The notes beneath the pieces are model-generated. The model worked only from the letters and a program-made list of their open reading frames with translations, did no database searches and was not told the DNA's origin. Of a stretch of 64,000 nt of DNA, positions 10,753-50,841 are shown one piece after another (the stretch's first letter is position 1; every line of letters starts with the position of its first letter). Made by a program: the position numbers and the translations under genes. The stretch is taken from NCBI GenBank assembly GCA_961205875.1, contig OY540810.1, forward strand, positions 4,898,001-4,962,000, given 5' to 3'. Source of the DNA: Sialis fuliginosa. Its lineage: Eukaryota > Arthropoda > Insecta > Megaloptera > Sialidae.

Positions 10753-11261
10753 CCTTTTAAAGACGGGGATTTTTACGTTAAAATCGACCTTTTTATTTAC
10801 CACAAAATTTGTACATAAAAACAATTAATTTCTCACGTGGCGTGCCCGATCATGTTGCCGGTCGATATATCGACCAGTGTCGTCCGAAACGTCCACTGTA
10901 AAAAATTCAGTTTCGACGATTTAAGGTCTAATTTATTGTTGTTGCTATTTTATGATAGCTTCAAAATTGGCAAGCACATGTTTTGTGATGAATTGAGTAT
11001 GGAAAAAATATCCATGGCCTTACATTCACCTTGTAGACGATTTTTGCGTAAAACTATTTTTTTTCATGATCAGTGCATCATAAAAAATAAGTTTATCAGG
11101 CCAAAATAGCCAAAAAATTGACCTTGAAATGCGATTTACAAGGTAAAGAATCTGTTTTACTATTTTTTTTCGTATTCAGCGCATCAAATTACGTAAGAAA
11201 ACATAAAATATTTTGTGTCCTATGGGTGGTTGATATTTCGACCACTCCTTCCCTTAAAAGG
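10753..11261. mobile_element. piggyBac-like MITE in a TTAA duplication
   Basis: TTAA at 10749-10752 and 11262-11265 flanks an element starting CCTTTTAAAG and ending CCCTTAAAAGG. Inside each end is a GGT(C/T)GATAT...TCGACCA motif (10860-10874; 11229-11245), so the subterminal regions are also inverted relatives. TTAA targeting and CCTTT-type ends are the hallmark of piggyBac. The interior holds a diverged direct repeat of about 60 bp (near 11030-11095 and 11125-11195, sharing ACTATTTTTTTTC and CAGnGCATCA). The 90- and 87-codon frames inside look incidental. Confidence 0.7.
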
Positions 11262-47104: not shown

Positions 47105-47330
47105 AATATAAAAAACATCTGCCAAGTAAATGCACAGTGCTTCCTCGTGCTAAATTCACTAAAACCGATAGTGTTCAGATAAATTGCCTGGCATTGGTTA
47201 ACCATTTAATTTTTATACAAATTTTACTAAAATATCTTAGTTCGAATTTTTTCTTAAAACGCACCTGAATATTTTTTCATATATTTTTAATTTTTTGACA
47301 ATTTCAATCTAAATCTAAATTTATGCAAAT

Positions 47331-47410
47331 GTCAAAATGACATTTAAAACGTCAAAGTGACATTTAAAACGCCAAAGTGACATTTAAAACGTCAAAATGA
47401 CACTTAATAT
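47331..47410 (+). repeat. 20-bp tandem repeat, four units
   Basis: Units of GTCAAA(A/G)TGACATTTAAAAC at strict 20-bp spacing. Each unit contains the inverted half-sites GTCA...TGAC. The reverse copy at 63100-63815 has at most a single degenerate unit in the equivalent place, so the array expanded only here. Confidence 0.8.
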
Positions 47411-48899: not shown

Positions 48900-50230
48900 A
48901 TGGCGATACACTGCTACAAAAAACGTATACATTATGCATATTCCTTCATTAAATATTACTTTGTAGAAATGTTCAGCGTTTTTGCCAGATCAAGTGCAAA
49001 TAACTATGAACATTGTATAATATACTGGTTCACTAGTATATTAATAATGAGTAATAAAATGCAAAGTATGTCATATATTTCAAAATATTTATTCATAAGG
49101 GTAGATTTAACGCTCATATCTGTTGCAACGTGATTTCTTAGGTTGGTAAATAAAATGAGCGTCGTTGAAAGAAAATGGTTTCTATTCACAGTACATCAAA
49201 AACACCGGCCTAATGATTTTCATATTGAAATTATAATTTTTACAACAATTATACACATGGATATTCCATTAATTTTTGGCTACTTAAGTTCATAACAGAA
49301 AGGAACCACACTAGTGTAAAAAAATTTGAAAATCTTTTTTTTTGTATTATCGAAAAATATGGACTTTTGTAAACATGCTTTTAAATTTTGGTTGGGATAT
49401 TCGAATTATTCCGGTCGCTACAGCTTTTCTTAGAAAAAGAGATCGACTAGCTGTGTGCAAGAAATAAGGTAGAGTGCATTTCACATGTTAACATTAAACG
49501 CGTTTTTCTCAAACGTCGTTTTTTTATTTGAAAAATTTTTATTTGAAAATTTCACATATTTTTTTAACAAAAATCTGTCGAAAAAAGGCCCAATTTGGCA
49601 CTTAATTTTGAAATGGCCACCATTTTGTTAATTTTCATTGGGAAAAAAATCCATTTCATACTGATTAATATTTTTTATGGTTTTTTTCTTTCAGACAATT
49701 TTTGTAGGAGCAGTGACCAAAAAATTGGATAATAAATAAAAGTTAAACAATAGAAAATATGTACCACATAAGTCATTTGAATAAACAAAAAAAAAATCGG
49801 ACTGATTATCGAATTTTACTTTTAAAAAATCATGAAAAACAGCAATTTTCATGCTCGTCACACTGGAATGGTTCCTTAAGAATTAAAATAAACATGCAAT
49901 ATTAACAACGTTAATAAATTAGCTAATTTTGAAACCGTTAATTTTGATGTACTACATACTTTATGGTTTCATGAATGACAGTTATATATAGCAACTCTTA
50001 TCTATCTCTTACATACTTAAGGAGATATATTGCACTATCGGAATAAGGCTTTTATTGTTCGCGAAACTGGTGGTAAAAGGGCTGTAACTACTAATATAAA
50101 GGATCCCTCGAAATTATTTGATATTTAATACATAATAACGAACAAAGATCTTGTCATTTATTCATTCAGAGTACTCGTATTGTTTCGCTAAAGAAGATTA
50201 GGGAACTTTCTTTTTTGCAAATCTTGATAT
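48900..50230. other. No gene seen
   Basis: AT-rich. The stretch 49560-49870 (GGCCCAATTTGGCAC ... CTCGTCACACTGGAATGG) has the texture of an interspersed repeat, but no second copy is in the window. Confidence 0.4.
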
Positions 50231-50275
50231 CCATTAAATATAACAAACAACAGACAAAAACTATAGTTATGACTT

Positions 50276-50450
50276 ATCAAATACAAATCCCCTAACCATA
50301 AAAATTGTAAGAGTTTAGACTTACTCGTGTTTCAATAGCAATGCTATCATCATCAGAGTCTTAAAGACACTAACTTAAAACTAAATACTACGACTATTTA
50401 TATACCTTAGAAACTACTGAACCGGGACTTATCCTGGAACGGGAAACGTT
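50276..50450. repeat. Left arm of the Penelope-like inverted repeat
   Basis: Pairs with 50670-50827. Shared words are CAAATACAAATCCCCTAACC, TATATACCTTAGAAACTACT and CCGGGACTTATCCTGGAACG. This arm keeps 11 bases (around 50342-50352) that the other arm lacks. Confidence 0.85.
50311..50371 (-). ncRNA. Type I hammerhead ribozyme of a Penelope-like element
   Basis: Read on the minus strand: stem I strand AAGACT; core CTGATGA; a stem II of up to 6 bp (GATAGC / GCTATT, loop ATT, one extra T before it); core GAAA; a minimal stem III of two pairs (AC / GT, loop ACGA); cleavage triplet GTA; and the other stem I strand AGTCT, which pairs base for base with AGACT. Every invariant hammerhead nucleotide is present. 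A very short stem III is typical of hammerheads described in Penelope-like elements. It lies in the 3' UTR just after the coding tail. Activity is not shown. Confidence 0.65.
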
Positions 50451-50470
50451 GACCGTATTGGTCTGAGTCA

Positions 50471-50668
50471 TTACTTTAATAAGGTGAAAAGGTTGGACCA
50501 TAGGGGTCCATTGTCGGAATTAAATACCTTACCCTTATTTTTGAAAATCTCCATATTTTCATAACAATCTAAATCTTTACTGTTAGAAACCGCTTTCAAT
50601 AGATTAAGATCCTGAATTCTGTGGTGATTTTCAAACATATGAGTAGCTACACTAGACTTATTTAATCT
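50471..50668 (-). pseudogene. Penelope-like GIY-YIG endonuclease C-terminal fragment
   Basis: The frame is uninterrupted for 65 codons to TAA at 50473-50471. It reads LNKSSVATHMFENHHRIQD, then LNLLKAVSNSKDLDCYENMEIFK, then a NGPLW end. KSSVA-x-H-x(4)-HH followed by E-x-x-E-I matches the C-terminal half of the GIY-YIG nuclease fused to Penelope-type reverse transcriptases. In the intact element this nuclease would nick target DNA for priming. The N-terminal part is cut off at 50669 by the inverted 3' UTR, so the fragment is inactive. The alternative, a stand-alone GIY-YIG gene, is less likely given the target duplication. Confidence 0.6.
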
Positions 50669-50669
50669 T

Positions 50670-50827
50670 AACGTTTCCCGTTCCAGGATAAGTCCCGGTT
50701 CAGTAGTTTCTAAGGTATATAAATAGTATTTAGTTTTAAGTTAGTGTCTTTAAGACTCTGATTGCTATTGAAACACGTGTAAATCTAAACTCTTACAATT
50801 TTTATGGTTAGGGGATTTGTATTTGAT
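50670..50827. repeat. Right arm of the Penelope-like inverted repeat, ribozyme broken
   Basis: Plus-strand copy of the 3' UTR. At the ribozyme position it reads ACTCTGATTGCTATTGAAACACG: 11 bases of core and stem II are missing, so this copy cannot form a hammerhead. Confidence 0.8.
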
Positions 50828-50841
50828 AATCCATTAAATAT

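Follow-up and report, generated by a model that had tools for sequence, protein, structure and literature searches.

A 5'-truncated copy of a Penelope-like element (PLE), flanked by a 13-bp target-site duplication (TSD), carries a minimal type I hammerhead motif in its direct pseudo-LTR (pLTR), and this particular copy is probably a slow or inactive ribozyme; we place the probability of this reading at about 0.85. The structure is a decayed, worn hammerhead in a truncated Penelope-like insertion, and its kind is already known from PLEs. It lies in the 64-kb window, which is the whole stretch of Sialis fuliginosa DNA that was analysed. The insertion and its principal parts, ordered along the element, are as follows.

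50242..50828, minus strand: Penelope-type insertion of 587 bp (inverted pLTR, coding scrap, direct pLTR, tail), recognized by its inverted arms and exact 13-bp flanking repeats
50829..50841, minus strand: upstream copy of the TSD, ATATTTAATGGAT, an exact 13-bp match whose last base is common to the end of the inverted pLTR
50670..50829, plus strand: inverted pLTR, 160 bp (copy B), its hammerhead core lost through an 11-bp deletion, from alignment with copy A
50753..50786, plus strand: hammerhead remnant in copy B (CTG-ATTGC..., palindromic ACACGTGT, stem I 3' strand AATCT), from the alignment
50471..50669, minus strand: 5'-truncated coding end, an open frame of ~65 codons and the stop codon TAA
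50274..50450, minus strand: direct pLTR, 177 bp (copy A), from inverted-arm search and alignment
50394..50406, minus strand, and in copy B 50714-50726, plus strand: TATA-like GGTATATAAATAG, a possible pLTR promoter
50317..50361, minus strand: hammerhead motif of copy A (stem I, CTGATGA, extra T, stem II, GAAA, weak stem III, GTA), from the sequence and a descriptor search
50242..50273, minus strand: 3' tail, 32 bp, beside the direct pLTR only
50229..50241, minus strand: downstream copy of the TSD, ATATTTAATGGAT, an exact 13-bp match

Three inverted arm pairs span 50269-50450 and 50670-50834. When the two pLTR copies were aligned, 158 of the 177 columns were identical, the others being two substitutions and two gaps of 6 and 11 bp (17 columns). 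Within the window the 13-bp ATATTTAATGGAT occurs, on either strand, at the two flanking places only. According to the part of PMC3846280 that deals with insertion structure, Penelope insertions combine an inverted pLTR placed head to head with a direct pLTR and a short TSD (8, 9 and 10 bp), and a 31-bp tail may be present; the corresponding part of PMC11167929 gives the optional tail as 30-40 bp. Direct and inverted pLTRs, a tail and a short TSD are all present here, and this anatomy is the main basis on which we assign the insertion to the PLEs. The sequence-only reading had proposed a Penelope-like insertion, which is borne out, and the arms, the 13-bp TSD and the 32-bp tail now make its boundaries exact. 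A close structural parallel is with Pen2a/Pen2 of Adineta vaga, as described in the same part of PMC3846280, which likewise have a head-to-head inverted pLTR, a direct pLTR, a tail of ~31 bp, a short TSD and a TATA-like box in the pLTR; their TSDs measure 9-10 bp, whereas the present one has 13 bp and its element is 5'-truncated to ~65 codons. As a TATA box is known in a pLTR (PMC3846280, in part), GGTATATAAATAG may by analogy have a promoter role, and in the direct pLTR the hammerhead lies ~30-45 nt downstream of it. A separate observation is that an AACGTT palindrome starts both pLTR arms (50445-50450 and 50670-50675), where each arm adjoins the coding scrap; for Penelope elements of rotifers PMC3846280, again in part, reports palindromes both at head-to-head junctions and at the 5' ends of pLTRs.

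The interval between the pLTR arms is 219 bp, and its minus strand closes the open frame at a TAA at 50471. We take the ~65-codon peptide to resemble the C-termini of PLE endonucleases, and on this pattern together with the context the coding end is read as a putative PLE endonuclease C-terminus. It had been proposed that the hammerhead lies directly behind a GIY-YIG coding tail: the position behind a coding tail stands, but domain models did not support GIY-YIG, as a Pfam search with the coding end and with one frame beside it gave no match. In the account of the superfamily that PMC1564403 gives in part, GIY and YIG lie near the N-terminus, with a central Arg and a C-terminal Glu; here the GIY and YIG motifs would fall upstream of the truncation. 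A search of PDB sequences with the coding end returned nothing significant (five sequences at E<=10, the best at 0.36); these five, all CASP8-and-FADD-like regulators, were set aside. Among viral and prokaryote contigs, a search for relatives of the coding end gave 22 and 67 pattern matches respectively, none of them confirmed, and one pLTR pattern and one hammerhead pattern found nothing in viral contigs. This is as expected, because the element is of animal type.

The surrounding window is AT-rich, its longest open frame has 194 codons, and no tRNA genes were found in its 64 kb, as would suit a eukaryote, probably an animal. It also contains a tandem repeat at 47327-47407 (4.1 copies of the 20-bp unit AAACGTCAAAATGACATTTA, 90% matches) and an Rfam match to iron response element II (RF02253) at 11058-11088 on the plus strand (34 bits, gathering score 30, E 0.0086), which has an AT-rich stem and a CAGTGC loop and could be due to chance.

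On the minus strand, positions 50361-50317 of copy A read AGACT CTGATGA T GATAGC ATT GCTATT GAAA CACGAG TA AGTCT, which we divide as follows.

50361-50357, minus strand: stem I 5' strand, AGACT
50356-50350, minus strand: core, CTGATGA
50349, minus strand: extra T before stem II
50348-50334, minus strand: stem II, GATAGC/ATT/GCTATT, 6 pairs, one of them G-T
50333-50330, minus strand: GAAA
50330-50323, minus strand: stem III, AC.ACGA.GT, 2 pairs with the loop ACGA, overlapping GAAA at its final A
50324-50322, minus strand: cleavage triplet, GTA
50321-50317, minus strand: stem I 3' strand, AGTCT
between 50322 and 50321, minus strand: predicted cut, after GTA

Each element previously named on this strand (CTGATGA, stem II, GAAA, the two-pair stem III, GTA and AGACT/AGTCT) was found, and stem I of copy A consists of five Watson-Crick pairs. 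Checked against the type I consensus positions set out in part of PMC3088659, copy A has C3 U4 G5 A6 N7 G8 A9, G12 A13 A14, the A15.1-U16.1 pair and H17; copy B does not conform. The passage of the review PMC7761336 on minimal PLE-type hammerheads describes them by a diminished stem III and a pLTR site, both of which copy A shows. The motif of copy A is thus a type I hammerhead of the minimal form that PLEs carry, and it sits in a Penelope-type insertion.

For the Poseidon/Penelope elements of Anolis, the relevant part of PMC11167929 describes a hammerhead (PAc) that likewise sits at the pLTR-ORF junction and has a start codon inside the motif, a canonical core and stems I and II; its ORF begins at stem II and continues, whereas here the frame from the core ATGs stops after 10 codons. 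The core CTGATGA...GAAA, a very weak stem III and a pLTR site beside the coding end are common to the present motif and the minimal PLE hammerheads. Minimal type I hammerheads in PLE pLTRs were reportedly the subject of work by Cervera and de la Pena (2014) and Lunse et al. (2017). The present insertion departs from them in an additional U that separates A9 from stem II, in the broken stem III palindrome of the copy that bears the core, and in the absence of the core from the other copy.

The last two of these departures become apparent when the two pLTR copies are compared. On the plus strand, the remnant in copy B (50753-50786) reads AGACTCTG-ATTGCTATTGAAACACGTGTAAATCT, and the missing 11 bp comprise the last part of the core together with the stem II 5' strand. 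In its stem I 3' strand AATCT replaces AGTCT, which breaks one pair, so that across the two copies stem I pairing is lost and not compensated in copy B (n = 2, one broken). A single base of stem III differs: ACACGTGT of copy B is a perfect palindrome, which copy A breaks at that base, and the calculated self-pairing of helix III falls from -10.3 kcal/mol for ACACGTGT to -0.6 kcal/mol for ACACGAGT of copy A. Weak stem III regions accompany dimer cleavage in amphibian hammerheads, according to parts of PMC7229834 and PMC6155905; in the axolotl, where cutting is better as dimers, stem III has either two pairs with a tetraloop or a single pair whose tetraloop is palindromic (PMC7229834, same part). 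The review PMC7761336 states, in its passage on PLE pLTRs, that the minimal hammerheads there may cleave as dimers. The likeliest reading is that stem III of this family is a palindrome for pairing two hammerheads, and that copy A lost the palindrome and copy B the core, a direction of change that we infer from two copies; the working form of the family would then combine the core of copy A with the palindrome of copy B. In neither copy is a dimer-competent hammerhead preserved whole, because the palindrome is broken in A and the core is deleted in B. The hammerhead had been called complete-looking, and this holds for the core of copy A; it does not extend to a working two-molecule ribozyme, given the broken stem III palindrome and the lost core of copy B.

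The extra T lies between A9 and position 10.1 of stem II (50349, minus strand). We considered whether it forms a U-U mismatch with T11.1 at the base of stem II, an arrangement known elsewhere (PMC3088659 and PMC7229834, each in part), and rejected this. The T is an added base, because a T-T pairing at 10.1-11.1 would leave the remainder of stem II unpaired. The unpaired T had been regarded as unusual; it is certainly present, but it is not unprecedented, as the section of the review PMC3705267 on the plus-strand hammerhead of CChMVd describes a single added nucleotide at this very place, between A9 and 10.1. In that natural case the extra base is an A, which moderately lowers the rate of trans-cleavage; its replacement by C or G is strongly deleterious, whereas that by U raises trans-cleavage 3-4-fold. 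By analogy, the extra T need not harm activity, because U speeds CChMVd trans-cleavage at the same position. CChMVd differs from the present case in being a viroid, in having A and not U, and in possessing loop 1-loop 2 contacts (PMC3705267, same section). The deletion in copy B takes out the position of the extra T, so that copy A is the sole copy showing it. The extra bases might also be taken for a duplicated ATG, a possibility considered on this one intact copy. A more far-reaching suggestion, which we consider rather unlikely, is that the extra U is fixed in this PLE family as a second natural core insertion of the CChMVd type, in which a rate-enhancing base would compensate for the missing loop-loop contacts in dimers with a palindromic stem III.

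The effect of U in CChMVd also bears on an alternative view of copy A, namely that it is a complete and active monomeric hammerhead which the extra U helps and does not hurt. The core bases, the A15.1-U16.1 pair and the NUH triplet are indeed all in copy A, and earlier self-cleavage of PLE hammerhead at 3-25 mM Mg2+ is mentioned in part of PMC11167929. However, in a 45-mer the hammerhead fold has -4.6 kcal/mol with the two-pair stem III and -5.0 kcal/mol without it, and stem III therefore adds no stability. Nor is the hammerhead the best fold of the monomer, as it lies ~4 kcal/mol above the best one (-8.7 kcal/mol), in which stems I and II are retained, the extra U pairs with G12 and further core bases are occupied. 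The passage cited above from PMC7761336 describes minimal PLE hammerheads as being without helix III or tertiary contacts, and in the portion of PMC11167929 on Anolis, PAc was cleaved only after protein was added, with insertion in vitro being independent of the hammerhead. We therefore regard an active monomer as quite improbable, and return to a worn motif from a family that is likely to work through paired hammerheads.

The Rfam search that had been proposed as a check of the motif was run and gave nothing at threshold: at the gathering score over 64 kb no family matched at the motif region, and at E<=10 no hammerhead was found in 401 bases round the motif. On 71 bases, RF00008 was the only hammerhead among the six matches listed (14.7 bits, E 0.56, cut-off 48.5), in a listing that shows the best clan member only and does not display the score of RF00163 itself; for minimal PLE hammerheads the 14.7 bits are an uncalibrated score. 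The RF00008 match was set aside as support for the motif, since its threading uses different stem partners. The fold energy of the 61-mer is ordinary in comparison with shuffled sequences (z = -0.09, with 89 of 200 at least as good), and the bare core CTGANGA...GAAA is not rare, occurring at six places in the window where 2.00 were expected (100 shuffles).

Frequencies of the whole arrangement were obtained with a descriptor modelled on the motif (stem I of 5 bp, stem II of at least 6 bp, at most one extra base). In the 64-kb window, on both strands, the descriptor matches only 50361-50317 when one extra base is permitted, and nothing when none is. As a null we used first-order Markov sequence with the dinucleotide frequencies of the window (770 Mb, one strand), in which it had 0 matches. 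Looser forms with 5 + 5 bp and 4 + 4 bp matched six times (0.001 per window, both strands) and 38 times (0.006 per window), and the 4 + 4 bp form without the extra base 17 times (0.003 per window); all these figures are optimistic, as the descriptor was composed after the motif had been seen. The PLE-type surroundings are support for the motif that is independent of these post-hoc figures. That an AT-rich repeat arm merely reads like a hammerhead, without ribozyme ancestry, could be argued from the missing threshold match in Rfam, the average fold stability, the common bare core and the absence of the core from the second pLTR copy, but it is highly improbable given the scarcity of descriptor matches in random sequence, the position of the motif in a pLTR, which is a reported hammerhead site of PLEs (PMC7761336 and PMC11167929, in part), and a PLE-type host insertion bounded independently of the motif.

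The preferred reading, a decayed hammerhead in a truncated PLE copy, suggests the following course of events. A 5'-truncated Penelope-like retrotransposon would have inserted with formation of the 13-bp TSD. In an active relative, transcription would begin close to the TATA-like box, a short way upstream of the ribozyme, and the element RNA would be cut after GTA, at the equivalent of the 50322/50321 bond. Such cutting would most likely involve two hammerheads paired through a ACACGTGT-like stem III, either in a tandem transcript or in two RNAs. In a read-through transcript, the two pLTR arms would be expected, from their complementarity, to form a hairpin in which the motif is buried. The present copy is probably slow or inactive because its monomeric hammerhead fold lies ~4 kcal/mol above the best one, its palindrome is broken and a hairpin of the pLTR arms is to be expected.

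The 2020 review PMC7761336 describes, in its passage on PLE hammerheads, their role as unknown. The present insertion is a further case of a hammerhead travelling with Penelope-like pLTRs, and is otherwise ordinary. The differences between its two pLTR copies within the ribozyme point to a stem III that is palindromic and of the dimer type, and suggest ready decay of the motif in individual insertions. The extra U, if it is family-wide, would offer a natural experiment on whether tertiary contacts can be replaced by a base at position 10.
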